DNA of 64,000 bases from a virus. How positions within the stretch are numbered: the first letter of the stretch is position 1; each line of letters starts with the position of its first letter. The stretch lies in IMG/VR virus record IMGVR_UViG_3300020465_000014, positions 1 to 64,000 of that record; one strand, written 5' to 3'. This document shows, one piece after another, positions 1,263 to 47,006 of the stretch. The translations under genes and the position numbers were made by a program. Below the pieces are notes generated by a model that saw only the letters and a program-made list of their open reading frames with translations, had not been told where the DNA came from and did not search any database.

Positions 1263-1316
1263 GGTTAGAATGGAATCATTAACGCATATCAGCACTTCGG
1301 CTCATGTAAGCAATTA

Positions 1317-2114: not shown

Positions 2115-2501
2115 TCAAAATGGGATATTCGGGATTCCACGTTTGTAAATTAACTGCATCAAATGAATGGTGAATATCGCAGAACCAATGAACCCAATTA
2201 TTCCCTCATCCAAAGAATAACCTCGAAGGATAATCCATCCCGCACCGATGAATGCGATAACATCAGTCAGAATGTTTGCTGTGTAAGAACGGTTATCGTC
2301 TGCATTCTTCAATTCACTAAGCATAAAATATCCGAGACCCAGGAAGATTCCAGCAAATAAAAAAGTCACAAAGTTTCCTTCTTGTAATTCTAAAAGTGAA
2401 TCCTCTGGAATATATTGAAAGGCGAAAATCAGTAATGCAATAGGGAGTAGCAAAAATACGGTGCTAAATTGTTGTAAAAAACTCTCTTCTTCAGCCATCA
2501 C
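2115..2501 (-). CDS. Small integral membrane protein
   Basis: A 128-aa protein with about four hydrophobic segments, near residues 13-31, 44-62, 77-96 and 103-120, joined by short polar loops. The N terminus is acidic (MMAEEESF). No family recognised. Its start overlaps the end of the 657-aa gene upstream (ATGA-type). It is one of several small membrane proteins interspersed between the large domain-bearing proteins. Confidence 0.65.
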   Translation of the reverse strand: MMAEEESFLQQFSTVFLLLPIALLIFAFQYIPEDSLLELQEGNFVTFLFAGIFLGLGYFMLSELKNADDNRSYTANILTDVIAFIGAGWIILRGYSLDEGIIGFIGSAIFTIHLMQLIYKRGIPNIPF

Positions 2502-15287: not shown

Positions 15288-15341
15288 ACTATGCAACCCT
15301 ATTCAACTACTTATGAAAAGAACGGGTAAACTTCACCAACA

Positions 15342-15363: not shown

Positions 15364-17796
15364 TCAACTTCTAATATCGTTTGCCTCAATCCATTCGGTA
15401 AATGCTTGAGTCCAGATTTGGTCGTCTCCGCCTATTTGTTCTAATTCATCTTTGATGTCTTGACCCTCATTATTCAGATACCTGTTCCACTTGGCGATTG
15501 TGATAGGATCTGAAATGCTTACTTGCGGGTATTCTTCAATAAGTAGTCGTTGACGGGTTGGAGACCAGGTTGCCAGGTTTTCGAAATCACCAGCGAAATA
15601 TTGCCTCCAATCTGGAAAACTTACTACGTCCAAAGTGGTTATTCTTGCAGGGTCTTTTGAATCTCCTGAAAATCCTGTTATTTCAACAAAATCATTCTCA
15701 TTATATTCTGATTCTCCTTCGTCTTCTGGAAATGAATCTGATGCGGTGATAATTCCGATTTCACCGCTTGGTAATCTAATATATTTCTCGTAAGCCATAT
15801 CTCGCTCAAATAGCCTTTGAACGTCTGTTATGTCTAAGCCTCCTTCTAATCTTTGTAATGCTAATGCGGCACTTGCACCTTCAACCATTGAGATTCCTAT
15901 GTTCCTTTGGTCTCTCAATGTCTGCTTGTCTATTTTGTTTACAAAACTCGGATTATTGTCCAATGGTCTCGAAAGCCCTTTCGAAAGGCTCTTTGGCGGA
16001 CTAATTATCTCGCTATTCCAATACAAAGGGCTATCCTTTGGCGGAGGCATTATTGTTCGAAGAAGGGGATTATCAAGAGTTTCAAAATCAGCACTCTCCA
16101 TGAAGTTCAAAGGGCCAAATTTCCTTATCATTTCGATTTCTCTTTGAGTAGGTTCTTCGGGATTTCCGACAATCATAGAATCGAAATCCTCTGAATCCTC
16201 AAACAATGATGTCGGTTGGAAAGCATCGATTAGATCCTTTTCAGTTATGCCTTGTGTTTCTATCATGTCGATTACTTCATCACCGTCTAAACCATATTCG
16301 TTAATCAAAGCAAATACGAATGCCTGGTATGCCCTTGCAGTTCTTTCTGGATTCGTTAGCTCTTTCGGTTCTAACATTGTCCCTAAGTTTTCGTTTTGTA
16401 GCGCATCAGAAATGTCGACTCCTATTGCTTCGAGGAATGTCTCGGCATCAATAGTAATGTCGTCAACGTCTATCAATGAATACAATTTTTCACTTCTTGG
16501 TGAAGGGTTTGAAGCCTCCCTGGTTAATCGTTCTGCATCTCGAAGATTTGCTTTACCAAAATATCCTTTTTCCAACTGCTTCAGTCGCCTTTGGTCTTCT
16601 CTGAACTTCTCATCAAATCTCGAAGTGTGCGGATATATTCCAATGTTGAATAGGACTTCTGCGGCTTCGGTTCTGGTTAAGAATCCGTAATTCTGAATAG
16701 TGCCGTCCATATCGTGAATGAGAAGCATTTTTCTCTCTTTGTTGGCATTTGTCCTATCAAACCTCTTTGCTCGGTTATCTTCGATTTTTTCCCTGCGATC
16801 TGTTAGGTTTCGTTCTTCGAATAAATTAGCATCGGCTTTCAGAGCATCTTCCCAATCATCAAATATTTTTTTGTCGTAGGTTCTTGGCTCTCCCTTCTTA
16901 ATTTTGAAGGTGTATTGTCCCTCTAATCCCTTTTCTCCTTTAGTGGCATAAACCAATTCATGCCCGTCTCTATTGACGAAAAGTGGTATGTCGTGCCAGG
17001 ATTCCCAATCCGTAGTCACAAGAGTTATCTCTTCGCCTGGTTCTATCTCTTTCATTGCTTGCCTTGCCCTTAGAACAGGATAAGGACAATTTAGACCTCT
17101 GCAATCAACCATTCGATTGTAAATTACTGGATATTGCCATTGATTCGCAATTGTTGGCTCAAGCGGTATTGTTTGCCATTGCCTGTCTCTCAAACTTGGA
17201 GTATCTGTCCCCGTCTGGTATAATGAGTCAATAGGAATGCTTCTTGGATAAACTTCGGTATAGACATCGGCCTCATCCATAGTGGTATCATTGGGCCTAT
17301 ATCGAGGGAATATTTGGACTCCACCCATTCTTTGAACTTGATTTTCATTTGGATTCCAATTTATTCTCGGATCTCTTCGCCAATTTAGATTATCTCGCAC
17401 GTATAGTCCAATCTCGTCTCGCCATTGAACCACCCTTACGTTGCTACCATAGGAACGAATCAAATCCGCTAATTGTTTTGTCCTGGCTAATTGATTAACG
17501 CTTGGTTTTCCGTCAGCGCCGTTTTGTGCGACTCCGAATAGTTGGTATGCTTTGTTGTTAAAAAAGCGATATTGGGGTCGTTTGCGTTTAGTTCTGACTC
17601 CTGTTACCTCGAAAGTCCGCTTTGTTGGCACTTCTCTTGCCATTTGTGCTTGCCTAAATAGAACAGTCGCAATTCTCTCGTCAGAATAATTCCTTGATTG
17701 TAGCTCTTTCACAAGCGCAGTTATGTTGCGAATGCTTGAACCTGTTGGATTTGAAAACTTCTTCCACTCTTCAAGTGTCCTTCGTCTCTTTGGCAT
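15364..17796 (-). CDS. 810-aa protein with recurrent domain and TusA-like insert
   Basis: Residues 1-75 are basic. The recurrent domain is at about 95-135 (NQLARTKQLADLIRSYGSNV). Residues about 228-302 match the TusA/SirA (YhhP) fold: VDCRGLNCPYPVLRARQAM, with the hallmark C-P-x-P at C237-P240, then a second half with D-x-x-x-DIPLFVNRDGHEL. In cells TusA-type proteins relay sulfur through that Cys; here the conserved Cys is present. The remaining 500 residues are acidic, helical and unrecognised. A sulfur-carrier or redox role of the insert is inference from the motif. Confidence 0.7.
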   Translation of the reverse strand: MPKRRRTLEEWKKFSNPTGSSIRNITALVKELQSRNYSDERIATVLFRQAQMAREVPTKRTFEVTGVRTKRKRPQYRFFNNKAYQLFGVAQNGADGKPSVNQLARTKQLADLIRSYGSNVRVVQWRDEIGLYVRDNLNWRRDPRINWNPNENQVQRMGGVQIFPRYRPNDTTMDEADVYTEVYPRSIPIDSLYQTGTDTPSLRDRQWQTIPLEPTIANQWQYPVIYNRMVDCRGLNCPYPVLRARQAMKEIEPGEEITLVTTDWESWHDIPLFVNRDGHELVYATKGEKGLEGQYTFKIKKGEPRTYDKKIFDDWEDALKADANLFEERNLTDRREKIEDNRAKRFDRTNANKERKMLLIHDMDGTIQNYGFLTRTEAAEVLFNIGIYPHTSRFDEKFREDQRRLKQLEKGYFGKANLRDAERLTREASNPSPRSEKLYSLIDVDDITIDAETFLEAIGVDISDALQNENLGTMLEPKELTNPERTARAYQAFVFALINEYGLDGDEVIDMIETQGITEKDLIDAFQPTSLFEDSEDFDSMIVGNPEEPTQREIEMIRKFGPLNFMESADFETLDNPLLRTIMPPPKDSPLYWNSEIISPPKSLSKGLSRPLDNNPSFVNKIDKQTLRDQRNIGISMVEGASAALALQRLEGGLDITDVQRLFERDMAYEKYIRLPSGEIGIITASDSFPEDEGESEYNENDFVEITGFSGDSKDPARITTLDVVSFPDWRQYFAGDFENLATWSPTRQRLLIEEYPQVSISDPITIAKWNRYLNNEGQDIKDELEQIGGDDQIWTQAFTEWIEANDIRS

Positions 17797-17797
17797 A

Positions 17798-18673
17798 CTA
17801 TCCCCTCAATTCTCTTTGAGGGAAATAGATGAAGTTTCGATAGCGGCCATTCTTCATTCTAACTGACCTGACTCCTAAACCATGCCTCCTACGCAACATT
17901 GCCGCCCTCATTCGTGCTGTGTTTCTGTCTAAAGATTCGTAGTTGAAATTAACGTAATATTTCCCATCGAAGTTTCTGTATTGGTAGGCATAGCCTCTGC
18001 GCCGTCTCTGTGTTGTTCCTTCGGGTCTCATTATTGGCGGGGTTCTTGTAGCGCCCCCTCTAAACTTCTTCTTCTTCTTCTTTGGATAGATCGGGTCATG
18101 TTCATGCTCATGTCCTGGTTGACTCTTCCATTCTTGCTTTGAGTCGAAATGAGAATGAACGTGGCTATGCTTTACCCAATCTCCGCCCAAATGCCCTGTT
18201 AAATGTCGATTGTATCTTTTTTGTAGGTCTCCTGGTTCAACGGCTACTGGAGTTTCTGTCCTTTCATCGAACTCTTGTAATTTTGCGGCAGTAATTGCTT
18301 CTGTGACGGCTTCTTCAACCAAAATGTCTGTTGATACGTCTTCAGGTTTGTTTGAAAATGATTCCTTGCGGAGATATACGCCTGGATTGTTGGATTCTCT
18401 AATTCTGTTTTGTGCATGAGTCAATTCGTGAACTACCACATCTTCGGTGACTCCATCGGCTCTCCTCAATGTATCAGGGTCAAGGTAAACTTCGTTTTCA
18501 ACAGATTGTCCAGCAATGTCTTCAGGCAATTCTTTGATGTCGATGTTAACGTCTGCTTTGTTTAGCTCTTTCAATTCATTCTTCGAGAAATTGTCTTTGA
18601 TGATTCCTCTAACGATCTTCTTCGATTGTTTGAGTTCCTCTGCACCCATTCCTGACTCGTCAGTTATTTTCAT
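17798..18673 (-). CDS. Putative zinc metallopeptidase with HELTH motif and recurrent domain
   Basis: 291 aa. Residues 40-95 read as a small metallopeptidase core: ENEVYLDPDTL, then VVVHELTHAQNR with HELTH at 82-86, the HExxH zinc site seen in many gluzincin/metzincin-like peptidases. The third ligand is not obvious. Residues 155-200 are His-rich (HSHVHSHF, PGHEHEHD), probably binding metal. A Lys-rich linker leads to a C-terminal recurrent domain (about 225-288, ending NFIYFPQRELRG). It overlaps the upstream gene by 4 nt. It could process the other domain-bearing proteins; that is speculation. Confidence 0.68.
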   Translation of the reverse strand: MKITDESGMGAEELKQSKKIVRGIIKDNFSKNELKELNKADVNIDIKELPEDIAGQSVENEVYLDPDTLRRADGVTEDVVVHELTHAQNRIRESNNPGVYLRKESFSNKPEDVSTDILVEEAVTEAITAAKLQEFDERTETPVAVEPGDLQKRYNRHLTGHLGGDWVKHSHVHSHFDSKQEWKSQPGHEHEHDPIYPKKKKKKFRGGATRTPPIMRPEGTTQRRRRGYAYQYRNFDGKYYVNFNYESLDRNTARMRAAMLRRRHGLGVRSVRMKNGRYRNFIYFPQRELRG

Positions 18674-20688
18674 ACTGGATAGCCTCCTCCATATTTGTAA
18701 TTCGCATAACGGCCTCCAGGTTGATACTGCGGGTTAGAATCCATTTCGCCTACTGGCACATAGACGGGTTTTGGGTCGTTTTTGTCGGACATTGCATCGA
18801 CTCCCAAAAGCACTCCTCTATTTATTGGAGGATTTATCCAGGCGGCAATTTTGTATTCTTCATTTTTTGTTCCTCTTTTGACTATTTGGCTATTTAGTGG
18901 TGGCGGTCTATTCTTCTTATTCAACCCCATCCAGGCGTTCTCTTTGTTGGATGGTTCAGTTGTTGCAGTAATCTTTGGCTTCTTTGTCTTCTTATCACCA
19001 GTCACCCTGAGTTGATTAGACAAAGTATTGAAGTAAAGTGTCGGATAGTTTAGATCCACATAGTAAATGTTGTTTGGATTGTCTTTTGCTTCTTGAAGAG
19101 TCATTCCCCTTTCTGATTCCTTTTTGTAGTTGCCTCCAACAAGAGAATATCTGCGCCCTAAATCTCCCATTCCTCTCGATTCATTTGTGTTTAGCAATCT
19201 ATCAGGTTCGAGGATTTCATCACTTCCTCCTCTGAGGAACTTGCGAACTTGCATACTCGCTGGATGGCCGTCATAAGCTACATCATCATCAGACCAAAAA
19301 TCGCCTTCGATTCGAAGGATTTTTCCGTCTTTTGAATATCTTGCTTCCTTCTCCATAAAACCTGAAGCCAATCTATCTCTGATTTCCTCTCTGGTCTCTT
19401 TGTTGTTCCTTACAACTTCGCCCGACCTGGAATTATTCTGTATTTCAATGGCTCTTGTGATTAACTTGTTTTGGGCTTCCTTGCTTAATTGGTCGAATCG
19501 TTTGAGAACTCCTTTAACGTCCCCTCCATAATCATTAACAAGACGATCTATCATTGGCCTTTCCTCCCATCTTTCATCTCCTTTACGTGGATTAGCAGAA
19601 TGCAATGGATTCCTGGGCGTTTCTGGACTAAATGGTGCAACAAAAATCGAGAACTCTTCGCCAGCAATCACCAATGGCAACATTACATCTCCATTCGTAT
19701 TTTCAAAAGATGGCTTTGAACTTACTGCAGAGTCAGGTCTGTTTCTCCAGTTTGCATGATGTCGGTTTCGTCTTTGCCATTCTTCAGAATCGGTATCATC
19801 GGCCTGAAGCGTATTGAAGGTAACATATTCTTGAGTTCCAAATACCTTCAGAGCCTCGTTTAATCGACTTCTTGAAAACAAGGAGTTTCCTATTCGTATC
19901 ACTTCTGCGTATTTTCCAGTAGTATAGCCAGGATATTTTGGCCCTTCATCAGTCCATGTTGTTTCCTTGCTATCTGCGAAATCTCTGCGATCTAAACCAA
20001 ACTCTCGTTTTGGTGCGATTGCTTTTCTAATGTCTCCAACTTTAGCGAATCCGACTTCAAGTGCGCCTGGATAATTTGAACGGATATTCATTACAGCATC
20101 GGGCAAATCACCTGTCCTCCATCCAAACATGACTGATGAAATGTCCCTTACGTAATCGTCTTTTTTACCTCCTCCTGGTATTGGTTCAGCCCAACCTTTC
20201 CAATCCCAATGTCGGCCTTCTGGTTTACCTTCTAATTCGACTCCCATGCTCATAAATCCAGGAGGGTAATTTTTGCCTTTAGCAAAAACTTCTCGCTTTT
20301 GCTCTGCAGTCAGCGCAGGGCGCTTGAGATTTCTGCTGGATAATTTGCGAAATGCTGGTGGCGTTTTTTTTCCGCTACCTTGCTTCCATATTTCCCTTCG
20401 AAGTTTTTGTGGTGCAGAATTGACGGACATTCGCTTTGGCATGGTTTTGCCTTCGCCTACGAATACAGCATAACCTCCGCCTGTCTTTTGAGAGAATGAT
20501 ACTTTCCTGGCTGGCTCGCCATTTGCTCGATGATATTTCAATAAACGATCTGCAACTTTTTCGGTTGTTTTTTCCGCACCGTATCTCAGCATAAGAGGAG
20601 ATTTACGATACGTTTTGTTTCCAAACTGTCGTTCTTCGACTAATTTGCGATAATACAGATTCGCTACAATAGGGATTCTTCGCCTCAT
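18670..20688 (-). CDS. 672-aa protein with N-terminal recurrent domain
   Basis: Residues about 10-80 hold the recurrent domain (TEKVADRLLKYHRANGEPARKV, then GGGYAVFVGEGKT). The rest is polar, rich in Asn/Arg/Gly, with predicted beta-rich stretches and no recognised motif. The end is Tyr/Gly-rich (YANYKYGGGYPV). It overlaps both neighbours by 4 nt, so its expression is coupled with the metallopeptidase-like gene downstream. Function unknown. Confidence 0.7.
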   Translation of the reverse strand: MRRRIPIVANLYYRKLVEERQFGNKTYRKSPLMLRYGAEKTTEKVADRLLKYHRANGEPARKVSFSQKTGGGYAVFVGEGKTMPKRMSVNSAPQKLRREIWKQGSGKKTPPAFRKLSSRNLKRPALTAEQKREVFAKGKNYPPGFMSMGVELEGKPEGRHWDWKGWAEPIPGGGKKDDYVRDISSVMFGWRTGDLPDAVMNIRSNYPGALEVGFAKVGDIRKAIAPKREFGLDRRDFADSKETTWTDEGPKYPGYTTGKYAEVIRIGNSLFSRSRLNEALKVFGTQEYVTFNTLQADDTDSEEWQRRNRHHANWRNRPDSAVSSKPSFENTNGDVMLPLVIAGEEFSIFVAPFSPETPRNPLHSANPRKGDERWEERPMIDRLVNDYGGDVKGVLKRFDQLSKEAQNKLITRAIEIQNNSRSGEVVRNNKETREEIRDRLASGFMEKEARYSKDGKILRIEGDFWSDDDVAYDGHPASMQVRKFLRGGSDEILEPDRLLNTNESRGMGDLGRRYSLVGGNYKKESERGMTLQEAKDNPNNIYYVDLNYPTLYFNTLSNQLRVTGDKKTKKPKITATTEPSNKENAWMGLNKKNRPPPLNSQIVKRGTKNEEYKIAAWINPPINRGVLLGVDAMSDKNDPKPVYVPVGEMDSNPQYQPGGRYANYKYGGGYPV

Positions 20689-21275: not shown

Positions 21276-21421
21276 GTCTTTCGCCTCTCTATTTCCTCTT
21301 GTAAATCCCACGCTTCCAATTCGTAAACCTGTTTCCAATCAGCGTCTTTCTCTGTATCACAAAGATGTTCAGTATAGGAGAGCAGATCCTTGAGTTCCTG
21401 GAATGTTAAATCCTCATACAT
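21272..21421 (-). CDS. Small acidic helical protein (49 aa)
   Basis: The ATG at 21421 overlaps the upstream stop (TAATG). The TGA ends at 21272 and overlaps the next ATG (ATGA). The protein begins MYEDLTFQELKDLLSYTEHL and continues as an acidic, amphipathic helix ending EEIERRKT. The overlaps at both ends in one frame, filling an otherwise empty 145-nt gap, argue that it is real. No family recognised. Confidence 0.6.
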   Translation of the reverse strand: MYEDLTFQELKDLLSYTEHLCDTEKDADWKQVYELEAWDLQEEIERRKT

Positions 21422-21870
21422 TAGGGCATCACCACGCAATCATCTATCATTATCGGCGCTCTCGTCACGCCGTATGCGGTAGCCCCGCATGATAGCGGGT
21501 TGTCTGGAGAATACTCAAAACTTGATTCTCCCAATATTTCGACTTTGTTTGCATTTATCGGGCCTTTTGATGTCTGAATCGTCATTGGCGGTTGCCGTTC
21601 TTGCATTGGCAGGTTGCGATTTGCACTAATCATAAATCGGTTAACGTGGATTCTCTTCAGGTTCGCTCTCTTCCTTTGAGCCATTGGGTTCTTCGAGCAA
21701 GCCCTGTAAACTGAATATGTGGTTTTGCCGTTTGTCTTACCTTTGATTATTTTCGCATTCATTCCAAGCATTCTATGTCGATTGGCAATTTTTTCTGCAC
21801 GATCTCTGGAAATACCATGTATTCCCAAAGTATGTCTTTTTTTGCCTATCATCCGAACTTGTGCTGGCAT
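21421..21870 (-). CDS. Basic protein with N-terminal recurrent domain
   Basis: 149 aa. Residues about 8-58 carry the recurrent domain (DRAEKIANRHRMLGMNAKII, then TTYSVYRAC), a copy with AKII in place of ARVI. The back half is polar (PPMTIQTSKGPINANKVEI) and ends in a hydrophobic, Cys-containing stretch. Stop and start codons overlap with both neighbours, so it belongs to the same operon. Function unknown. Confidence 0.68.
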   Translation of the reverse strand: MPAQVRMIGKKRHTLGIHGISRDRAEKIANRHRMLGMNAKIIKGKTNGKTTYSVYRACSKNPMAQRKRANLKRIHVNRFMISANRNLPMQERQPPMTIQTSKGPINANKVEILGESSFEYSPDNPLSCGATAYGVTRAPIMIDDCVVMP

Positions 21871-23966
21871 TACAAATCCTCCAAGAATTGTAGCTCTCCT
21901 GAAGGTTGTTGGAAAATCTGTCCAACCCTCTTAGCAAGCGTAGGATTTGGAGTCACGCCATCTGGAGAGGGCGCTCTCCATACCTCGATTGTGAAATCTT
22001 CGAACTTCAATTCCTTGCCGCTTTGCATGGCTGGAATCAAAGAATCGTAAGAAGAATATTTCTCAAAGAGTTCGTCATAACTGACTCCAGGCTGTAGCAT
22101 ATTTTTCGCTTCTCGAAGTGCATTTGCCTTTGACCTTTGATACCAAAGAGATGTTGTATTTCCGCTTAGATCGGTTAGCCTAAGTTGATATTTTGCACCT
22201 TCAGTTGCGTCAAGTTGCGCTTGAGCATCTCCGCCCTGGTTAGCAACTCTTTCAGCCGCAACAAGTCGCCTGTGATTTTCCGCTTGCTCTGCAACTGAAC
22301 CATCGATGTCTAAGAACTCGAACTGCTCTCGGTTGCGGTCTCTTCCCGATACCCATTGAGGCAACATAAATCTCCTAACATAAGGCAATATATCGTTGGC
22401 GTAATTCCTATCTTCAGGTTCTCTTTTCGTTCCGTTAAGGAAGAACTTGAAATCTCCATCTTCCAATCTTGCATCTCCACCTAAACCTTTGATTTGGAAT
22501 CCAAGATATGTGCCGCTTGACTTATCCATTTCTGCCAAAACTCCGACTACTGCGATACCTGGCGCTGGTTTGTTGTTTTGAGAAAATCCTTCCTCTGAAT
22601 ATATTGGATTTTCAGAAAGATAAATTGCATCATCGTAAGCGGTTAGAATTGAATCCCATTTATCCGTAGGGTCGTCAGGGTCATACGGAATAATCGAATG
22701 CGCTTGACCTGCAGAATCGAGAACAGCCCATCCTTCTTCGACTTCGGTTTCAAATCCTTCTGCATCATTTACTGGCCTCCATGTCCAAATCCCTCTTTGG
22801 TTTGGTCGAGTTCTTACGGGCGCTGATGCGCCTAAACCACCGCCATAACCGTCAGGTGGCGCTAAGATCGTTCCATCTGGTGCGGTTAGCATATCTGAAC
22901 TAAATGAATCATAGAATGCGCTTCCAATTAAGGAATCACCTTCTGAAAAATCAATACTATCAAGCAAATCCTCTAAATCAGTTGGTTGTGCAGTTTTTCC
23001 TATTCTTGCTTCTTCTCTAAATCTTTCCTGAGATGAAATGATAATTTCCTTTGTCTCTTCGGGATTGTCGCCCCAAGTTTCGAATCCTTTTTGCCACATT
23101 TCATCGATTTTATCATCGAATATCTCATCATAGGTTTCGTCTTTGCTTTCTATGTCTCCAAGCAACTCATCTAAGTCAAAATCTAAATCAAAATCAGTTT
23201 CAACTTTGATTCTTGCATCCTGGGCGCTTTGTCGGTTCATCTCATTGAACTCCTCAATAGAGCCGACTGTTGCCGTTCCTTCCTCGATACGAGCATTGAT
23301 GAAATCCGACATAGCCTCATTCATTCCCATAAACAGGTCTTCTTGAGAATCGATTTTTGCCAATTGTGCTTCTTTTTGTTGTAATTGAAATAGATCTCCG
23401 CCCTGAAGTCGCTGAAGGGTTGTTATTGCATCAGCGCCACCGATGTTCGACAAGTTTTCTCCAAATGAAAGGTTTGGATTATACCCTTGCTGTTGAGATA
23501 ACCACGTCTGCAGTTTCAAAGTATCAAGTCCAATTAACGGGTCTTGAAAATCTCTCCAGGGTATTCTGATGTAGTTGTATGTTGTTGGTCGTTTGAAAGC
23601 ACTCCAAAGGGCAGGGTTTTCTGGAGAGAAAACTTGCCTTGCTCGTTGCCATGCTTGATTGTCTTGAGAAAGTTCGACTGCACTTCTAAATCCAAGAGAC
23701 CTTGCGTAAGCGTTGAAAAGATTGAGGCGATCCACAAACTTAGGATTTCTAAATCGTGGCAGACCATAGGAACTCATTGCTGGAGTAGCACCAACGAATA
23801 ATCCAATGTCTCCATCTGCATATCTTACTGCCCTTGCATTGTAGCCACGTTGTCTTACATTACGTGCGACTTTGGCAATAGTGGTATTGTATTTTGGAGA
23901 CAATTCCAAAACCTTTCTAAATTTCTTTCCTCTGAATCTCCTTTCATTAGCTCTCTTTCTCGGCAT
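21870..23966 (-). CDS. 698-aa acidic protein with N-terminal recurrent domain
   Basis: The recurrent domain occupies about 8-60 (TIAKVARNVRQRGYNARAV, then DIGLFVGATP). The body is long, acidic and largely helical, with Asp/Glu-rich patches near 255-280 (DFDLDFDLDELL) and a mixed region after 380. No catalytic motif recognised. It sits directly downstream of the heliorhodopsin gene with a 10-nt gap, so the two are co-transcribed. Confidence 0.7.
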   Translation of the reverse strand: MPRKRANERRFRGKKFRKVLELSPKYNTTIAKVARNVRQRGYNARAVRYADGDIGLFVGATPAMSSYGLPRFRNPKFVDRLNLFNAYARSLGFRSAVELSQDNQAWQRARQVFSPENPALWSAFKRPTTYNYIRIPWRDFQDPLIGLDTLKLQTWLSQQQGYNPNLSFGENLSNIGGADAITTLQRLQGGDLFQLQQKEAQLAKIDSQEDLFMGMNEAMSDFINARIEEGTATVGSIEEFNEMNRQSAQDARIKVETDFDLDFDLDELLGDIESKDETYDEIFDDKIDEMWQKGFETWGDNPEETKEIIISSQERFREEARIGKTAQPTDLEDLLDSIDFSEGDSLIGSAFYDSFSSDMLTAPDGTILAPPDGYGGGLGASAPVRTRPNQRGIWTWRPVNDAEGFETEVEEGWAVLDSAGQAHSIIPYDPDDPTDKWDSILTAYDDAIYLSENPIYSEEGFSQNNKPAPGIAVVGVLAEMDKSSGTYLGFQIKGLGGDARLEDGDFKFFLNGTKREPEDRNYANDILPYVRRFMLPQWVSGRDRNREQFEFLDIDGSVAEQAENHRRLVAAERVANQGGDAQAQLDATEGAKYQLRLTDLSGNTTSLWYQRSKANALREAKNMLQPGVSYDELFEKYSSYDSLIPAMQSGKELKFEDFTIEVWRAPSPDGVTPNPTLAKRVGQIFQQPSGELQFLEDL

Positions 23967-23976
23967 TGATTTCCAC

Positions 23977-25074
23977 CTAACCCAAAACGGCTGTGTTAGC
24001 CCATATCGACCATGCCAGTAATGATTTAGAAATCAACGATAGCCAAATGTATATTCTTTCACCAAACAGGTAGTTTGGATAAACGCCTTCTGCATACTGA
24101 AGTGCATGGTTGAAAGCGAATGATTGGAAAAGCAAAAATTGTGTTACTATGATGAACCAAACAAAGTCAGGAACTTCGGAAAGGTCTGCGCCAATCTGTG
24201 AAAGGTTGAGGAAAATTGAGCCATAAACTGCAATCCAGGGGAAAGCACCAACAATGCAACCCATGATGAAGGGTGTCCAATCCGTCCTATCTCGGTCTGG
24301 TGGATTTTGAACTTCAGATAGCCACCCAAATAGAATCATGCCAATATTAGCACCAGCAACTCCAATCAATGCTGAAAGATTGGTAAGTCCTGAAAGTAGC
24401 ATGATAATCAAAATCATAATTGTTGATGATAAAGCATACTCGACCCATCTGAAGATATTTATTCCACGATCTAATTGTCCTTTGTAAACTTCAAACACAC
24501 CTGGCAATACAGTCAGATAATGGAAAACTGCAGATAACAGGGAGAATGATGCAACCCAATATGCGATTATTGCCTCGTAGTTTGATACAATTACTGGAGA
24601 GCATTCTCCATTTTCATAGCAACCAGGAGGGCCAGGTGCAAATGTGCTTAGAACTGTGATTACGAAATCCTGATTCGCCCATAGAATCATTGCCAATCCA
24701 GAAAGCAGGTGAACAGTTCCTACCAAAAATGAAAATCTCCGAATAGAATCGTAATCCTCCTCCGTCACATCATCTGCAACCTGCGCTCTCCTTGAAGCCA
24801 CAATCGCCTCTTGATTGTAAATTGAAGAAGATCGCTTGCTGATTCTCGGTTTAGGCATCTGCGGATTTACCATATCGCTCAAAATCTCTTCTTGCTTTGT
24901 TAATCGATTAGGATTCGTTACTACTTGCCATCCCTTCTTCTTCGGCAATACTCTCGCTAATTTTCCTTGATTTCTCATTTTTTCAGCGACTTTTTCAGCA
25001 CTTTGTTTCGAGGAAAGGTTTGCTTCGTTTACGAAAGGCTGTTTTGAGCCTCTTACGTCAAATCGCCTTGCCAT
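23977..25074 (-). CDS. Heliorhodopsin with N-terminal recurrent SPOR-like domain
   Basis: 365 aa. Residues 105-365 form a seven-helix heliorhodopsin, a retinal-binding light sensor or transporter of inverted topology. Visible family hallmarks are H122 in helix 1 (GTVHLLSG), H185 in helix 2 (AVFHYL), E212 in RWVEYALSS (counterion position), WTPFIMG, FNHALQY, and the retinal lysine K350 in SLISKSLLAW. The E-H spacing (27) equals that of heliorhodopsin 48C12 (H80/E107). Residues about 12-55 are the recurrent domain (QSAEKVAEKMRNQGKLARVL), joined by a 50-residue linker. Heliorhodopsin N termini are cytoplasmic, so the extra domain should lie inside. A GGGAGG ribosome site and a promoter-like motif precede it. 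Confidence 0.92.
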   Translation of the reverse strand: MARRFDVRGSKQPFVNEANLSSKQSAEKVAEKMRNQGKLARVLPKKKGWQVVTNPNRLTKQEEILSDMVNPQMPKPRISKRSSSIYNQEAIVASRRAQVADDVTEEDYDSIRRFSFLVGTVHLLSGLAMILWANQDFVITVLSTFAPGPPGCYENGECSPVIVSNYEAIIAYWVASFSLLSAVFHYLTVLPGVFEVYKGQLDRGINIFRWVEYALSSTIMILIIMLLSGLTNLSALIGVAGANIGMILFGWLSEVQNPPDRDRTDWTPFIMGCIVGAFPWIAVYGSIFLNLSQIGADLSEVPDFVWFIIVTQFLLFQSFAFNHALQYAEGVYPNYLFGERIYIWLSLISKSLLAWSIWANTAVLG

Positions 25075-25124
25075 GTCTCCACCTCCCTAAATGGCATAAT
25101 AACGGCTTTGGCGTAAGTTGGTTT

Positions 25125-25140
25125 AGATGCACACTTTATC
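25125..25140 (-). promoter_or_regulatory. Promoter-like motif upstream of the heliorhodopsin gene
   Basis: The minus strand reads GATAAAGTGTGCATCT, its GTGC core about 54 nt upstream of the ATG at 25074, within the 73-nt gap. It implies that heliorhodopsin starts a transcription unit running leftward. Confidence 0.55.
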
Positions 25141-25147
25141 AGCGTAG

Positions 25148-27046
25148 TCAATCGTCCCCAAGTATGCTTTTCCAGGCTCTCCTTATTTCACCAACTTTTT
25201 CTGTTCCGCCATCCCACGAACTGCCTCCTATTGGTTTGGCAAGTATTGCGGCAGGTAAGTTGGAGAAATCACTTTTCTTGTCGATGAAGTCCTCAATTGC
25301 ATTAGCGGACATTCTTCCTTGATTATCTGAATACTTGTAATCTTTAGCCAACTGCTTGTCCCATTTTTTGTTTAGAGCTACCGAATCGTTGTCGAGCATA
25401 TATTTATCCTCCCAACCATGAATCCAATCGGGCATATCTTTGTCGAAGGCGAACCTCTGATAATTCCAAAGCCGTTTATCGTATGGTATTTTTCCAAAAT
25501 TGCTTCCATAACCCTGATACGAAGGAACGGCTGTCTGAAGACCTACGTTCCGCTTGATGTCTTTCGTATCTTTGTTGGGATCTAAATGCAAATTGCCGTT
25601 TTCATCAGGGACAAACTTCGAGCCATCTGGAGGGTATGCTTCTTTTCGAGCAACCCATTCAACGAATGCCATATTTCCTGTTTCTGTATCTGACTTTCCA
25701 GGGTCTCCTTCTACGCCAAAATATCGCTTGTTGAAATCTGTCCTCATTCTCTTTGCAGATGGAGAAAAGTCATTCCATATCGCTAATTGTAATGCAAAAT
25801 CGACTTGTGAAATGTTCCACATCTTGCCTCCATAGAAAAGTGCTACGTTATTTTGGTCTCCATCGTCTTCATCATAATCAGTTCCGTCTTGCCAACCAAG
25901 CGGTGTTCCTTCTTTATCGAAGAATACTTGATGGTCTCCTATGGCATAAAGTGCATCTGGATTTTGTGTCGACAATTTGTGGGCTTCTTTCATTGTCTGC
26001 CATAATCGATAATGCCAGGAGTCGTTAGGTAGGAATCCTCCCCGTTCTTCACCAAGAGATGCAGACATACGAAGAATCCATCTTCTTACAGGCAACTGTT
26101 CCCAGTAATCATTAGTGTATTCTTTTCCTATTCCTAAAGCATGGGATTCTGATTCGGTAGTTGATACTCCGTAAATGATGGCGGGATAACTCAAGTGTTC
26201 CGCCCAAGCGTCTTCTGAAATTGGCGCATCCTCTAAGAGATTGTAATAACCGCCTCTCGGATCTTCATTGTTGCCTGTAATGTTGTAGTGGTCTTCTAAA
26301 GAACCGCCGCCAATTGTGTAATCAGAAGCGCCATAATCGCCATACTTCTTAATCAGAAAGTGCTTAATCGGGGTCAATGGTCGAATAAAATATTCTGGAC
26401 TTTTTTCTGCACCTTCAGTAAAAATCGCTGAATCAAAGTTAATCTCATTTTCCAAAAGTGCCTCTGAAGTGTCCTCATTTAATTCTCTATCCAGAAATTC
26501 AGAACCCATCATTCCTGATGATTCTAAGCGTTCCATTGGTCGGTTTTCACCGCCTCGAAATAAAGTAAAAATTGAACCGCTACCCGCAACATTTGGCGGT
26601 GTGCTTTCAATTGGCAGATTGCCCCATGTTCCACGTCTTACGAATATATTTTCTCCAAGAAGTGTATTTACTCCGCTATTCCTCCACGCTGTTTTCGATT
26701 CGACTTTGCCTGGCCCACGTCTTCGAATATTCACATCAAGTCCTTTCCTTCGGCCTTTTTGTCTCTCTGTAACCATCCTATTTTTCCTATCCATAGTCAT
26801 AGATTTGGGGACTTTAGGCGCATCACCGCCATATTCTGATTCCCATTGCATATCCCACCATTCGCTGAAATCTTTAGGATCGTCTGAAGGAGGAAGCATA
26901 TCTGAGTTGTAGCTCTTTCGTGAATATATCCCCATCTCTCCATTAGCCCATTTTACGGTTCTTACATTGATGCCTTTACGTCTTGCAGTAGCAATCGCCT
27001 TCGCTAAAGCCAGCCTTCTTTTGTAGGGCATATTCGAAACCTGCAT
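25148..27046 (-). CDS. 632-aa protein with N-terminal recurrent domain (start probably further upstream)
   Basis: From the ATG at 27046 the protein begins within a recurrent-domain copy (LALAKAIATARRKGINVRTV, then GEMGIYSRK). The open frame continues upstream and encodes RRPLIRRFNKKPYQK, which matches the N terminus of the neighbouring paralogue, so the real N terminus is likely near 27120 after a frameshift. The body is polar, rich in Trp/Tyr/Gly and Asp, without a recognised motif. It is a paralogue of 27117..28931 at least in the first 70 residues. Confidence 0.7.
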   Translation of the reverse strand: MQVSNMPYKRRLALAKAIATARRKGINVRTVKWANGEMGIYSRKSYNSDMLPPSDDPKDFSEWWDMQWESEYGGDAPKVPKSMTMDRKNRMVTERQKGRRKGLDVNIRRRGPGKVESKTAWRNSGVNTLLGENIFVRRGTWGNLPIESTPPNVAGSGSIFTLFRGGENRPMERLESSGMMGSEFLDRELNEDTSEALLENEINFDSAIFTEGAEKSPEYFIRPLTPIKHFLIKKYGDYGASDYTIGGGSLEDHYNITGNNEDPRGGYYNLLEDAPISEDAWAEHLSYPAIIYGVSTTESESHALGIGKEYTNDYWEQLPVRRWILRMSASLGEERGGFLPNDSWHYRLWQTMKEAHKLSTQNPDALYAIGDHQVFFDKEGTPLGWQDGTDYDEDDGDQNNVALFYGGKMWNISQVDFALQLAIWNDFSPSAKRMRTDFNKRYFGVEGDPGKSDTETGNMAFVEWVARKEAYPPDGSKFVPDENGNLHLDPNKDTKDIKRNVGLQTAVPSYQGYGSNFGKIPYDKRLWNYQRFAFDKDMPDWIHGWEDKYMLDNDSVALNKKWDKQLAKDYKYSDNQGRMSANAIEDFIDKKSDFSNLPAAILAKPIGGSSWDGGTEKVGEIRRAWKSILGDD

Positions 27047-27120
27047 AACACTCGCTTTCTGGTAAGGTTTTTTGTTGAACCTTCTAATTAGTGGTCGTCT
27101 TTTTCGATTGATTCAATCAC
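27047..27120 (-). other. Probable lost 5' end of the downstream gene, with +/-1 frameshift
   Basis: A GTG at 27120, overlapping the upstream stop (GTGA) and preceded by GAGGGGG, reads VIESIEK and then hits a stop. Shifting frame inside the run of five A gives RRPLIRRFNKKPYQKASV and then enters the next gene in frame. That string matches RRPNIRQFNRKPYSKVRV at the start of the adjacent paralogue. This is either a sequencing error in the A run, a mutation, or real frameshifting. Confidence 0.6.
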
Positions 27121-28931
27121 CCCCTCATTTGCCATTTTCGCCTTTCGATTTCTAATGATATGTCCTCATCGGGGACATCATCCCAATTAACCCAACTTCC
27201 TCTCAAGAATCCCTTGATTGAGTCGCCGTCTCTGTCGAGCATATTCTCGAATCGTTCTTTTGCTTCTGCAGGGGTTTCAATAGATCCATCCATTCTGTAT
27301 CTTCGCCCTGCCTCTGTGAAATTGATTCCACGTTCTGTAAGTTCTTCAACTACTTCACTTTGCCATATTCCATGATAGCCAGGATTCCATTCATCTTCTA
27401 ATTCAACTTCTGTTAACAGATGAGGCGAGCCGCCATAGACCTCAAGCCAATTTGCGATTCCTGATTCTCCCCATTCTGTAATTGCGAAATTAAATTGATT
27501 AGCGAAGTTAGGGTCGTCATAATCTCCTGGGTCTTTTTCTCTCAACTTAACTCCTCTGAACCACAATTGAGCCAGCCCGTCTTTCCATTCCCTTCTATCG
27601 CCCCAACCTCTATCTTCAGCGATTTGATTTGTAAGTTGGTCTGCAAAATTAGTTCCGTATTTTTCGAGATAACTTCCGTCTGCTTCTATTTCGTCTCTCT
27701 CGACCCATTCTCCATCGATGTAATATCCATCGTCTCCATCAAACTCAAGTTCATTATCTGGAGTAATTCTGATTCCCTCAAAATCACCACGTCTTCCAGA
27801 GAAAACGGCGGTATCGATAGCGACAACGGTTATCTCGTTGTCCCTGTATAGTGAAAGGCGCTCTGCTTCTTCTTCTATGTCTGCATCATTTGCATTCAAG
27901 CGTTCTCTTCCCTGGCCTTGCTTTGCTACGTCTATGGCGTATGGTGCTTTAGCCGCAATTGCATTTAGGAAAGCTACTTCTCCTGGATATTTGGTTTGTG
28001 AGTAATCTGCTTGTCCTGTTGCGAATACATCATCGAGTTCTTTTGTTGCAGTCAAAAGGGTATCATCCAGCCTGTATGCGGCCTTCATATTCCACGCATC
28101 GGGATTATCACTCCAGGGTGAACCTGACGATCTAACAGTAACTACTGGCAAAGCCACGTATTCAGGAATTGAAAGCATTGTAATCGTATTTGCGTCTGGA
28201 AGTTCTGCACCTACAATTCCCTGTTGAGATGGGTTATATCGAGGCGCTTCTGGTGTTGAAAAGTCCAATCTTTCGAACTCTTCTTCGGTCATTATTAGTT
28301 TGGCATTGCCAAGTTGATTCGAAGGATTCATCCCTGTCTCAATTATGTTCTCTCCAACAGCCCAACGGACTATTTCCTCAAATCCTTTACCTCCAGACCT
28401 AAGACCAAATAAGGCTCTTGACTCTGAATCCTTTTCGTTCTTCTTAATTGCCATATCAACAGAATAATATTCGCTGTCCAAATCAGCCATGAACTCCTCC
28501 CAATCAGCCATCATATCTTCATTGTCTATATCGAAATCCATTCCCCCATAACCGTAATCTTCCATGAATAATTCTAAGTCCGTCAACTCTCTATCCATTG
28601 TGCCGCTTTGAATCATCTCGTTTAGATTTCTGGTTCGAGCAAGTTTTCTAATTGAGTCAGGTTGCCTTTTCAACGGAGATCCTTTCCGTCTCGGTTTCCT
28701 GGTTTCTCTTTTGTTGTAAACAAGGGGCGATTTCCTGGTCGCTTTCCTTGCATATACGCCAATTTCACCATTAGCCCAACCTACCGTTCTAATATTGATG
28801 CCGTTTGCTCTCAATTTCTGAACTCGTTGCGATAAAATACGCCGTTGATTGAAATTAAGATTTGGCAAAACTCGAACCTTTGAATACGGTTTCCTGTTAA
28901 ATTGCCTGATATTTGGCCTTCGTCTCATCAA
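27117..28931 (-). CDS. 604-aa acidic protein with N-terminal recurrent domain
   Basis: Begins MMRRRPNIRQFNRKPY. The recurrent domain follows to about residue 65 (RILSQRVQKLRANGINIRTV, then GEIGVYARK). Next comes a basic linker, then a strongly acidic body with many Asp/Glu patches (DIDNEDMMADWEEFMADLDSE). No recognised enzyme motif. The ATG overlaps the upstream stop. The N terminus is closely similar to that of the gene just downstream, indicating tandem duplication. Confidence 0.7.
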   Translation of the reverse strand: MMRRRPNIRQFNRKPYSKVRVLPNLNFNQRRILSQRVQKLRANGINIRTVGWANGEIGVYARKATRKSPLVYNKRETRKPRRKGSPLKRQPDSIRKLARTRNLNEMIQSGTMDRELTDLELFMEDYGYGGMDFDIDNEDMMADWEEFMADLDSEYYSVDMAIKKNEKDSESRALFGLRSGGKGFEEIVRWAVGENIIETGMNPSNQLGNAKLIMTEEEFERLDFSTPEAPRYNPSQQGIVGAELPDANTITMLSIPEYVALPVVTVRSSGSPWSDNPDAWNMKAAYRLDDTLLTATKELDDVFATGQADYSQTKYPGEVAFLNAIAAKAPYAIDVAKQGQGRERLNANDADIEEEAERLSLYRDNEITVVAIDTAVFSGRRGDFEGIRITPDNELEFDGDDGYYIDGEWVERDEIEADGSYLEKYGTNFADQLTNQIAEDRGWGDRREWKDGLAQLWFRGVKLREKDPGDYDDPNFANQFNFAITEWGESGIANWLEVYGGSPHLLTEVELEDEWNPGYHGIWQSEVVEELTERGINFTEAGRRYRMDGSIETPAEAKERFENMLDRDGDSIKGFLRGSWVNWDDVPDEDISLEIERRKWQMRG

Positions 28932-29995
28932 AAGCCCTCCCTGTCTCTGAGAATCTTCTCGTCTTCATCAGTCCATTGGTCGATAACTCGTCCTCTCTTT
29001 CCGCCCCTCATGGGTCTCCTGTCTCTATTACGTTTGATGGATTCGTCAGTCCTGGATGCTTTCATGTTTGGCGCTCGATTTACCTTTTTGATTTCGAGAT
29101 CTATTTCATCTGAATGAATTGCGCCTCCTTTGTTATCATAGTAGTAGCCGATTTCTTCAATTCTATCTGCAAGTTTTTGCCTGAACTCCTTAGCCTCATC
29201 CAATGTGCCAAATGCGTATGTTGGTTGATTTTGTTTGGTGGGTAAATTCTCCATGCCTTCACCAACAAACCGTTCAAAGGCTGGTCGATTCCAATTTATT
29301 ACAACCCAAAACCTCGCAGGTTTGGAAACTTTAGGAATATTCCCTCCTGAAGTTATCAGTTCTCCTCCAAAACCAGCAATTCCTGAATCACTTTCACCTG
29401 CTATGTTGATGTTGTTAAGATGGCGAACATTCATTGCGACTGCATTTTCAGGGTGTATCTCTTCTGCAAGAGATGTTCTTTTCGTTTCGAAAGAGCTTGC
29501 TGGCAAAGTCGGCAAATCTTTTTCTCCAATTTCGTTAATTCGGTTCAATGAGTTTTGAAATCGGCTTTGAGTATTTTGCGCCACGCCTGGTATTGAATCT
29601 CCCAAAAAGAAGTAAGCCTGATCGTCTGTGGAATCTCCGAATTGGTAATCGCCGTTTCGTAAATTCAGGTTTGCCGACTCTCTTTGGTCTGGAGTTTTTT
29701 TGTCCATTGAATCTTGAACCCTTCTCGCAGACATTAAGCCGCTTTCAGATATTTTGATGTTGACCGTATCAGTAAATGTGACGTTGTATTTTTTGGGCGA
29801 GGCATAAACTCCACTACCTCCTCTCCAACTTACTACCCTGGCATTATACCCTCTTTGACGCAGAAGTTCTGCTTGTCTTTCTGCAATTGACTTACTTTCT
29901 ATTGGGTGTCTCGGCCTACCGTCTCTTGTGTAATTGTATGTCCTGGAGACAAGTCGGTATGGGTTTCCATCAAACCTACGGACTAATTTCACCAT
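28928..29995 (-). CDS. 355-aa protein with N-terminal recurrent domain
   Basis: Residues about 3-72 contain the recurrent domain (IAERQAELLRQRGYNARVV, then GGSGVYASPKKYN), preceded by a first strand VRRFDGNPYRLV. The middle is mixed; a stretch at about 225-285 (KPARFWVVINWNRPAFERF, then YAFGTLDEAKEFRQKLADRI) looks like a compact alpha/beta unit. The C terminus is basic (KRNRDRRPMRGGKRGR). Function unknown. Coupled with both neighbours by overlap. Confidence 0.68.
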   Translation of the reverse strand: MVKLVRRFDGNPYRLVSRTYNYTRDGRPRHPIESKSIAERQAELLRQRGYNARVVSWRGGSGVYASPKKYNVTFTDTVNIKISESGLMSARRVQDSMDKKTPDQRESANLNLRNGDYQFGDSTDDQAYFFLGDSIPGVAQNTQSRFQNSLNRINEIGEKDLPTLPASSFETKRTSLAEEIHPENAVAMNVRHLNNINIAGESDSGIAGFGGELITSGGNIPKVSKPARFWVVINWNRPAFERFVGEGMENLPTKQNQPTYAFGTLDEAKEFRQKLADRIEEIGYYYDNKGGAIHSDEIDLEIKKVNRAPNMKASRTDESIKRNRDRRPMRGGKRGRVIDQWTDEDEKILRDREGF

Positions 29996-31122
29996 CAGAA
30001 ATCACCTTCACGAACCCTTATTTTTGAAACAGGAATAGTATCTCGAATGCAGAGGGTGTGAGTCGTTTTGTAGCCTGATTCCCAATCTGTATCTGATTCA
30101 GGCCAAAGCAAATATCTCGGATCTCTTTGCTTATTCATCTTAGCAAGTGTTTCCATCCAGGATGAATCCGTTTTCCATAACGGTTCTGACTCTCCTGTTT
30201 CGTCATTGTAATATTCATCTTCTAAAACTCCCATGCTCATATCATACATCTCGTAATCAGGTTGGAAGTATCTCTTCATTTCTGCGGGACTATCAATCAC
30301 AACTTCGAGAAAAATATCTTCTGCATAAGCAGATGGATAGGCATTGTCTGAAGCAATGTCTGCAAAGGTGTCTGGAATGTTCAATTCATCTGTTCCAAAT
30401 GGAGTAGCAAAACAGCCAGCAGTCATTTTTCCTTCTGCTTGTATATCAATCCAATTTTTGAGAGAAGTTCCATGAGTCATTATTATTGGGAATCTGATTT
30501 GCTCATAATTCGGCGGCAGTAATCTTTTGGCATGGAGTTCGAGCAATCTCTTCTCCTCTCCAGTAATGAATGCAACTGGCTTTACGCACATACTGCAGGT
30601 TTCTCCAAAGTTCGCATCTGAATCATTGCCACAAATCGGACAAGGCCAGCAACCATAACTTCTGTCGTCATGGTCTTCTTCTATACCTTCACAACCACAA
30701 TCTCCGCCTTTTCTGCATACTGCAGGTGGCTTATCTGGTGCTACCAATTCACCCCATGCCTCCAGAGGGTCTTCTATTTCATCGACATTGAATCCTTTTT
30801 CGTATTCGTCAATTGGCCCATCTCCATACCAGGCGAACTTCGGGTCGTCTGCTTCGGGCATTTCTCCAAAGTCCTTTTCTCGGCCTACTGAATCTGAATA
30901 CCAATCTCCAGTATTAGCAACGGGCAGATCGCTTGGAAATTTAGTTGCATATTTCCTTCGATTGCCAATGTATATCCCATGTCCGCCTGTTTTGGTGTGA
31001 ATGACCCTGGCGTTGTAGCCCCTTCTTCGTATTGCTTCTGCAACATTTTGAGCATGGCCTTTGTTTGTAGCTCTCCCTAACCTTCTGAATGAGACATTAT
31101 CGATTCTTCTAACTGTTCGCAT
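29995..31122 (-). CDS. Recurrent domain plus zinc ribbons plus ADP-ribosyltransferase-like C terminus
   Basis: About 375 aa from the ATG at 31122, chosen because it follows the upstream stop by 1 nt with a GGAAGGGGCG ribosome site. Residues 4-60 are the recurrent domain (RRRGYNARVIHTKTGGHGIY). Two Cys groups follow near 135-180 (C-x5-C-x-C, then CWPCPICG and CSMC), likely zinc ribbons. From about 205, FPIIMTHGTSLKNWIDIQAEG is typical of the HGT-x-x-x-x-I-x-x-x-G strand that opens ADP-ribosyltransferase/Tpt1-like folds, and the end (TIPVSKIRVREGDF) also fits. Catalytic Glu not assigned, so the activity is inferred from one motif. Confidence 0.68.
   Translation of the reverse strand: MRTVRRIDNVSFRRLGRATNKGHAQNVAEAIRRRGYNARVIHTKTGGHGIYIGNRRKYATKFPSDLPVANTGDWYSDSVGREKDFGEMPEADDPKFAWYGDGPIDEYEKGFNVDEIEDPLEAWGELVAPDKPPAVCRKGGDCGCEGIEEDHDDRSYGCWPCPICGNDSDANFGETCSMCVKPVAFITGEEKRLLELHAKRLLPPNYEQIRFPIIMTHGTSLKNWIDIQAEGKMTAGCFATPFGTDELNIPDTFADIASDNAYPSAYAEDIFLEVVIDSPAEMKRYFQPDYEMYDMSMGVLEDEYYNDETGESEPLWKTDSSWMETLAKMNKQRDPRYLLWPESDTDWESGYKTTHTLCIRDTIPVSKIRVREGDF
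30965..31035. repeat. DNA repeat copy A (partner at 63336-63406)
   Basis: About 70 nt within the recurrent-domain coding part. It is nearly identical to 63336-63406, including a perfect run of about 30 nt covering the codons for ARVIHTKTGG. Other domain copies in the window have diverged at DNA level, so this pair points to recent duplication or gene conversion. Confidence 0.7.
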
Positions 31123-31123
31123 T

Positions 31124-32125
31124 TCACGCCCCTTCCCTTTCCTTTTTCCTTTTGGCAAGGGCGGCTTGACCTTCTGGACTGTTAATCATTTCATCAAAAT
31201 CTGCCATAGTGCCTTTTTTCTGCTTCACCCCACTTTTGGCATCGTCTTTGCGGAATAAGCGGTGGACTTCTTCAGCATATACTGAGTTGGCTGGAGAAAA
31301 GAATGCGGGTTTATCATCAACCTCAATCACAAAGAGTCCTTTTGCTTTTTTGGCCTTCTCGAATGTCCTTCTTCCAGTAAGGATTTCAAACAATTCTTTG
31401 GTTTCCTCATATCTTTCTCCTTCTTTTGTCCATTCCGCCTCTCTATTTCCTCCAGCATGAACTACCCAGGTTTTGAAAGCCGCTTCTCCTTCTTCTAACG
31501 TCATTGTTTTGATTAGTGAATCTGATTCTTTAGGATCTAATACTCCAAATCCTGTGACTTTGGATTTGGGATTTATTTTCACTTGGGGGAAAACATATCC
31601 CATTCCGTTCTTCTCAAAGTATTTCTCTTTGTCTTGCATCATTCTTGAAAGCCCGATTTGCATTTTTGCTATCGTGGTTTTTGTCTTATCGTTAGGAACG
31701 TCCTTTGGTTTTGGTTTTGGCAATCCCAAAATATCAGCAAATGAGAACTTTGTCTTGAGCCATTCTAAATCATCTGCTGGTTCATCGGGTTTCAAAGGAG
31801 GCAATGATGTTTTGATTTTGTTTAGATCGGTTGGGGATTCTATCTTTGGAATCATTGGAGGAGGAGGCATGGTCTCTTTTGGTTTCCTTCTTGGAGGCAA
31901 TGGCCGCATTAGTTGTGGCTTTTGGGTGTAAAGTGCTGTCCAACCTGCACCATTGACTACTCGAACATTAAATCCAGCATTCCTTAGCATCTTAGCTCTA
32001 AATGATGCTTCCTGGTTTCTCTGCTCATAAGTCATTACTCCTTCAGTAGCACCTTGAGTAAATGCTTCTGTTAAACCATAAGTCAGACCATTAAATCTCC
32101 TGGTCGCACCTGGCCCTCTCCCCAT
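31124..32125 (-). CDS. 333-aa basic protein with N-terminal recurrent domain
   Basis: Residues about 8-75 hold a diverged recurrent domain (EASFRAKMLRNAGFNVRVV, then AGWTALYTQKPQ). A Pro/Lys-rich linker (about 75-130) follows. The C-terminal half is helical and basic, with FVIEVDDKPAFFSPANSVYAEEVHRL near 265-295. No recognised motif. It lies 2 nt after the 105-aa gene and 1 nt before the next one. Confidence 0.68.
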   Translation of the reverse strand: MGRGPGATRRFNGLTYGLTEAFTQGATEGVMTYEQRNQEASFRAKMLRNAGFNVRVVNGAGWTALYTQKPQLMRPLPPRRKPKETMPPPPMIPKIESPTDLNKIKTSLPPLKPDEPADDLEWLKTKFSFADILGLPKPKPKDVPNDKTKTTIAKMQIGLSRMMQDKEKYFEKNGMGYVFPQVKINPKSKVTGFGVLDPKESDSLIKTMTLEEGEAAFKTWVVHAGGNREAEWTKEGERYEETKELFEILTGRRTFEKAKKAKGLFVIEVDDKPAFFSPANSVYAEEVHRLFRKDDAKSGVKQKKGTMADFDEMINSPEGQAALAKRKKEREGA

Positions 32126-37091: not shown

Positions 37092-37107
37092 AGATGCACA
37101 CTTTGTA
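37092..37107 (-). promoter_or_regulatory. Promoter-like motif upstream of the 1524-aa surface protein
   Basis: The minus strand reads TACAAAGTGTGCATCT, with its core 56 nt upstream of the ATG at 37039, in the 84-nt gap. Confidence 0.55.
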
Positions 37108-41150: not shown

Positions 41151-41167
41151 AGATGCACACTTCAACA
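41151..41167 (-). promoter_or_regulatory. Promoter-like motif upstream of the 1016-aa surface protein
   Basis: The minus strand reads TTGTTGAAGTGTGCATCT, core 57 nt upstream of the ATG at 41097. Next to it CACTTgttgAAGTG forms a short inverted repeat. Confidence 0.55.
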
Positions 41168-47004: not shown

Positions 47005-47006
47005 AG

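Follow-up and report, generated by a model that had tools for sequence, protein, structure and literature searches.

Heliorhodopsins are a family whose N termini are cytoplasmic and whose function is an open question. The closest described relatives of the protein reported here, 48C12 and TaHeR (PDB 6SU3, 6UH3 and 6IS6), consist of a seven-helix core and carry no N-terminal domain. N-terminal fusions are known from cellular hosts, namely MORN-HeR and zinc-ribbon-HeR, in which the cytoplasmic domain was proposed to transmit or anchor (PMC8612252). Among viruses, V2HeR3 of Emiliania huxleyi virus 202, a giant virus, is a proton-transporting heliorhodopsin; transport needs E191 and probably W195, the E191Q substitution abolishes the photocurrent (PMC9448325), and no tag is described in the text consulted. 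In the literature searched for heliorhodopsins together with viruses, phages or archaea, as far as its accessible text goes, they appear in giant viruses, mirusviruses, algal viruses and bacteria, with no prokaryotic-virus heliorhodopsin, and virus-encoded members are reported for eukaryotic viruses only.

The stretch of DNA analysed here (the window; 64.0 kb of the IMG/VR virus record G000, whose length is 65.4 kb) encodes a canonical heliorhodopsin (HeR) that bears a folded, basic N-terminal tag, and the same tag occurs on about 19 other proteins of the genome. As read from the open reading frame, the gene has 365 codons and lies on the minus strand, exactly at the coordinates given in the initial annotation; the plus strand across 23977–25074 is closed by many stops. 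The gene and its parts are as follows.

23977–25074, minus strand: tagged HeR gene, 365 aa (profiles and purifying selection)
24913–25047, minus strand: recurrent tag domain, HeR residues 10–54 (strands 15–20, 39–44 and 49–54 and helix 23–35 modelled)
24763–24912, minus strand: linker, HeR residues 55–104, two predicted helices (fast evolving, 29% identity to the relative G001)
23986–24762, minus strand: seven-helix HeR core, residues 105–363 (profiles, PDB matches and model)
24025–24027, minus strand: codon of the retinal lysine K350 in S346-xxx-K350 (alignment to 48C12)
25079–25088, minus strand: strong Shine-Dalgarno-like AGGGAGGTGG ahead of the HeR ATG (sequence)

Residues 105–363 are a genuine heliorhodopsin, as had been proposed from the sequence. 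Residues 111–361 match the Pfam heliorhodopsin profile PF18761 (E = 2.5e-70, 237 bits; cutoff 26.7), and the protein matches the NCBIfam equivalog NF038020 with 217 bits (cutoff 100). The best PDB sequence matches are 48C12 (E of about 6e-49) and TaHeR, with alignment identities of 43 and 34%, respectively. Assignment to another seven-helix family was considered and rejected. The AF2 model (pLDDT 89.6) has the seven-helix fold, with a beta hairpin in extracellular loop 1 (strands 138–145 and 161–169), and was aligned by Foldseek to 48C12 (6su3) with a target TM-score of 0.92 over 262 columns at 40% identity. The motifs quoted in the initial annotation (H122, H185, E212, RWVEYALSS, FGERIYIWLSL and SLISKSLLAW with K350) are all present, and the E–H spacing does equal that of 48C12 (27 in both). 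In the alignment, H122, H185, E212, E254, E339 and S346-xxx-K350 correspond to H23, H80, E107, E149, E230 and S237-xxx-K241 of 48C12 and are invariant or near-invariant among 58 sequences; the single Glu counterion in helix 3 (E212), the pocket His pair (H122/H185) and the SxxxK retinal-lysine motif in helix 7 are thereby kept. Comparison with the G001 orthologue gave a pN of 0.25 and a pS of 0.77, indicating purifying selection. From family knowledge, HeR would bind all-trans retinal, which would be supplied by the host because the retinal-making cleavage enzyme Blh was not found in a search that had no working positive control.

The 100-residue N-terminal extension had been described as holding a domain that recurs in the element. 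The domain is indeed there, but it takes up only about 45 residues (approximately 12–54) and is followed by a fast-evolving linker of about 50 residues. An HMM whose training set was 15 other proteins of the window, HeR being left out, found the HeR N terminus at E = 1.9e-6 and detected 20 window proteins in all, HeR included, at E ≤ 4e-6, plus one more at 0.0099; the best of the ten-fold shuffled decoys reached 0.046. The profile of other copies was needed for this detection, as a phmmer search of the window ORFs with the HeR N terminus alone returned only itself. An HMM retrained without HeR on 44 copies from four genomes scored the N termini of the window HeR and of its orthologues in two relatives, G001 and G004, at 33.2, 21.6 and 3.7 bits; the top of 2000 shuffles was 9.9 bits for the window and the top shuffle 13.2 bits for G001, whereas 17 of 2000 shuffles equalled the G004 score. 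The tag on HeR is thus certain in the window and in G001, whereas the G004 copy is degenerate and may be losing its role. The other tagged proteins of the window are listed below, the evidence being the tag HMM unless given in brackets.

62–760, minus strand: 232-aa protein, C-terminal tag
753–1295, minus strand: 180-aa protein, partial tag
2498–4471, minus strand: tagged 657-aa protein
5994–8189, minus strand: 731-aa protein, C-terminal tag
9213–11060, minus strand: 615-aa protein, C-terminal tag
11144–13996, minus strand: tagged 950-aa protein
14010–15296, minus strand: tagged 428-aa protein
15364–17796, minus strand: tagged protein with a TusA sulfurtransferase domain (Pfam and tag HMM)
17798–18673, minus strand: protein with a VHELTH metalloprotease-like motif, C-terminal tag (motif and tag HMM)
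18670–20688, minus strand: tagged 672-aa protein
21421–21870, minus strand: tagged 149-aa protein (tag HMM; order kept in G004)
21870–23966, minus strand: tagged 698-aa protein, directly downstream of HeR with a 10-nt gap (order kept in G004)
25148–27046, minus strand: tagged 632-aa protein, upstream of HeR
27117–28931, minus strand: tagged 604-aa protein
28928–29995, minus strand: tagged 355-aa protein
29995–31158, minus strand: tagged 387-aa protein (tag HMM; its tag modelled, pLDDT 91.9)
31124–32125, minus strand: tagged 333-aa protein
51401–52477, plus strand: GP88-family protein, C-terminal tag
63314–63865, minus strand: 183-aa protein, C-terminal tag

Most copies of the tag, which comprises about 45–50 residues, are located close to one of the two protein termini, and their net charge is +4 to +14, while the tagged proteins are otherwise often acidic. 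The passengers are unrelated to one another: TusA, GP88 and HeR in the window, as well as a metalloprotease-like protein recognised by sequence motif only, and an SNF2/DEAD-type helicase and an ATP-dependent DNA ligase in G001. Simple hydropathy singles out HeR as the one multi-pass membrane protein among the tagged proteins. The tag behaves as a modular unit, found on either terminus of proteins that are otherwise unrelated. The TusA domain lies inside an 810-aa protein that also contains a HAD-like DMDGT motif and has an orthologue in G001. A six-copy tag profile searched against IMG/VR retrieved one more contig labelled as viral, on which a single tag-like domain (RDRGYNARVVDQGGGKYAVY) lies within a 1295-aa protein (L117:3749–7636, IMGVR_UViG_3300017989_004419); this record contains no heliorhodopsin.

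The tag copy of the 387-aa protein, modelled alone, formed a one-helix, 56-residue unit of the order strand-strand-helix-strand-strand (pLDDT 91.9), and the tag part of the full HeR model showed one strand, followed by the helix and both final strands (mean pLDDT 76–96). SPOR domains are two-half folds of about 70 residues with two helices. The Foldseek neighbours of the tag were weak (all E > 0.1), the best being a SPOR domain (PF05036; CwlC, PDB 1X60; E = 0.15, TM 0.64) and the ring-building motif of the type III secretion proteins PrgK/EscJ (TM 0.65); nothing in a viral structure library reached E = 0.001, and, of 45 tag copies, six gave a weak Pfam SPOR match (E ≤ 1, the lowest being 4.7e-4). 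The tag is therefore referred to as SPOR/RBM-like in fold and not as a SPOR member; it is roughly half as helical as SPOR, has no significant fold match and, on HeR, would face the side of the membrane opposite to that where SPOR-type peptidoglycan binding takes place. It is rather unlikely, in our estimate, that the tag is a nucleic-acid-binding or charge-neutralising module used independently by each protein, which on HeR would tether the DNA or RNA of the virus to the membrane. Its strongly basic character, the passengers that act on DNA (helicase and ligase) and the frequent nucleic-acid binding by small beta-alpha-beta folds agree with such a module, whereas TusA, GP88 and a membrane photoreceptor are also among the passengers, and the structural neighbours are SPOR and ring-building domains, with no significant nucleic-acid-binding fold.

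The fusion differs from MORN-HeR and zinc-ribbon-HeR in that its N-terminal domain is a different one and is shared with about 19 further proteins of its genome; the tagged HeR has no Pfam match to MORN repeats or a zinc ribbon, and residues 1–104 contain no CxxC. N-terminal heliorhodopsin fusions as such had already been described (PMC8612252), and the suggestion that a tagged rhodopsin would be a new arrangement holds for this domain and for the viral setting: a tag–rhodopsin fusion was not found in the accessible parts of the literature searched, and 48C12 and TaHeR have neither the virus-wide tag nor a place in a virus-labelled genome.

Together with its relatives, the window forms a small family of 63–66 kb virus-labelled genomes, three of which are near-complete. 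Profile queries identified G001 (IMGVR_UViG_3300017767_000008, 63,413 bp), G004 (IMGVR_UViG_3300038299_000386, 66,372 bp), the partial G003 (34,575 bp) and short pieces; single-sequence searches with the full HeR protein returned nothing from IMG/VR or from 50,697 phage records. The ends overlap by 77 bp in G000, 123 bp in G001 and about 150 bp in G004, inexactly in the last case (109 identical bases, then mismatch within the final 41), and the G004 HeR gene runs across the contig ends. G000, G001 and G004 are therefore circular or circularly permuted. The conserved core includes a P-loop ATPase-like protein (64–67%) with no PDB or Pfam match, the membrane protein at 46291 (61–68%), the N-terminal part of the protein at 48277 (up to 73%), GP88, DUF932 and TspO. 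As no terminase, portal or HK97 capsid protein was matched among the scanned proteins by Pfam or PHROGs, searches that could miss remote homologues, 'virus' is here the label of the collection. The gene style is prokaryotic, with overlapping ORFs and Shine-Dalgarno enrichment. A homologue of the core ATPase was absent from 396 Actinomycetota genomes, in a search that had no positive control and is uninformative on the host. The product of the gene following HeR in G001 (L002:11185–12324) has a signal peptide and DSDGDG calcium-binding-like repeats, from which Poseidoniales (Marine Group II archaea) would be a guess at the host. TspO, a protein associated elsewhere with light or redox, is encoded as a TspO/MBR tryptophan-rich sensory protein in the window (47001–47384, plus strand; Pfam 7.5e-26) and in G001, G003 and G004. 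A DUF5754 (PF19058) domain is found in the window (60511–62892, minus strand), in G001 (59012–59593) and in G004 (1053–1541), where the copy is also tagged; its gene is just upstream of HeR in G004 and one gene further up in G001.

All three near-complete genomes encode an N-terminally extended HeR together with TspO. The proposed fusion to the recurrent domain is retained whole in G001 (62% identity over 365 residues) and in a diverged form in G004 (44% over residues 3–320). Between the window and G001, identity is 56% in the tag, 29% in the linker and 71% in the core; pN is well below pS in tag and core, and the linker drifts. A host-contig chimera was rejected, since the fusion is found again in genomes whose ends overlap. 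A tree of 60 rows, with TaHeR as the sole archaeal member sampled, grouped the viral HeRs of the window, G001 and G004 into one clade (support 100/99) with a long stem among actinobacterial-type heliorhodopsins. These data bear on the idea that HeR is a captured host gene serving as an auxiliary gene that tunes light or oxidative-stress physiology of the host, its N-terminal domain being incidental, e.g. partner-binding. We regard this as unlikely: heliorhodopsins are common in monoderm hosts and are linked to light stress (PMC8612252), and TspO accompanies HeR in all three near-complete genomes, yet the tag was found on none of 80 cellular heliorhodopsin loci, the viral HeRs form their own long-stem clade, and the N-terminal domain is the one on about 19 other viral proteins. 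A second, independent prokaryotic-virus heliorhodopsin was observed on a tailed-phage contig (L109:2387–3175, IMGVR_UViG_3300036987_000418); it is untagged, lies between terminase-like and portal-/Clp-protease-like ORFs and is placed beside TaHeR in the tree. Annotated heliorhodopsin genes are also present on plasmids (NZ_CP141705.1, Lactococcus petauri; CP069395.1, Chloroflexota).

A 13-nt element (consensus AAAGTGTGCATAT) was found upstream of HeR and several other genes. Across four genomes, 29 of its 72 matches are followed, at a distance of 63–66 nt, by the start codon ATG of a long frame (other 4-nt distance windows: mean 1.4, maximum 6), and the excess persists when the words used to build the matrix are left out (16 vs 1.07). 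In the window, it stands before HeR, before the genes of the largest two predicted surface proteins and before a small number of other genes; the matrix scan located the following copies.

25125–25137, minus strand: upstream element AAAGTGTGCATCT, 63 nt before the HeR ATG
37092–37104, minus strand: same element before the gene of the 1524-aa predicted surface protein
41151–41163, minus strand: same element before the gene of the 1016-aa predicted surface protein

The HeR gene of G004 is also preceded by the element. Because this fixed-distance element is common to HeR and surface-protein genes, HeR probably starts its own transcription unit within a surface-protein regulon. TTCATA is often found about 28 nt downstream of the element, and the spacing resembles the archaeal TATA-to-initiator distance more than that of sigma-70.

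Like V2HeR3, the tagged HeR is a virus-encoded heliorhodopsin, and an analogy with the proton transport of haptophyte-virus members had been drawn at the outset. The alignment does not support this analogy: the equivalents of E191 and W195 are Q312 and F316, and position 312 is Gln in the window and in both relatives. V2HeR3-like transport was rejected on these hallmark positions, and their replacement makes a sensory or regulatory role more likely than V2HeR3-type proton transport. That HeR is nevertheless a light-driven ion transporter altering the host membrane, as in the coccolithovirus, seems very improbable; proton-transporting viral heliorhodopsins do exist and residue 312 is polar in all three relatives, but the E191Q change abolished the V2HeR3 photocurrent (PMC9448325), and, helix ends aside, the predicted helices contain no acidic residues other than E212, E254 and E339, all shared with 48C12.

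The capsid-targeting sequences of T4 internal proteins and the cargo signals of encapsulins are short peptides. The tag may work like them, as a common terminal signal that directs unrelated proteins to one particle, and differs in being a folded domain, in occurring at either end and in having a polytopic membrane protein among its passengers. The most economical reading, and in our judgement the best overall, held with evenly balanced confidence, is that the tag docks a sensory, retinal-binding HeR onto a viral assembly together with the other tagged proteins. HeR would bind host-derived all-trans retinal and sense light with a slow photocycle. Given the cytoplasmic N termini of heliorhodopsins, the tag would face the cytoplasm, or the interior of the virion if a virion membrane exists, and could dock HeR onto the same assembly or cargo compartment as the helicase, the ligase, the sulfurtransferase and the other tagged proteins. 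A common destination of this kind would place the photoreceptor at a membrane-bound viral structure, where its light output, in the form of light-driven shape changes, could act on tagged neighbours. Alternatively, each tagged protein could use the domain for a ligand of its own, nucleic acid or another. More tentatively, a prokaryotic virus family may load a common particle or assembly by means of one folded sorting domain on about one-third of its proteins, the photoreceptor included, giving a light-sensing virion or intracellular viral structure.

In this virus-like family, prokaryotic in style, HeR belongs to a conserved set. The tag names likely partners of HeR, the roughly 19 other tagged proteins, so that tests of interaction and localisation become direct. 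It further suggests a cargo system based on a folded domain and, if it is a common sorting signal, a photoreceptor appears to be routed into a viral structure.
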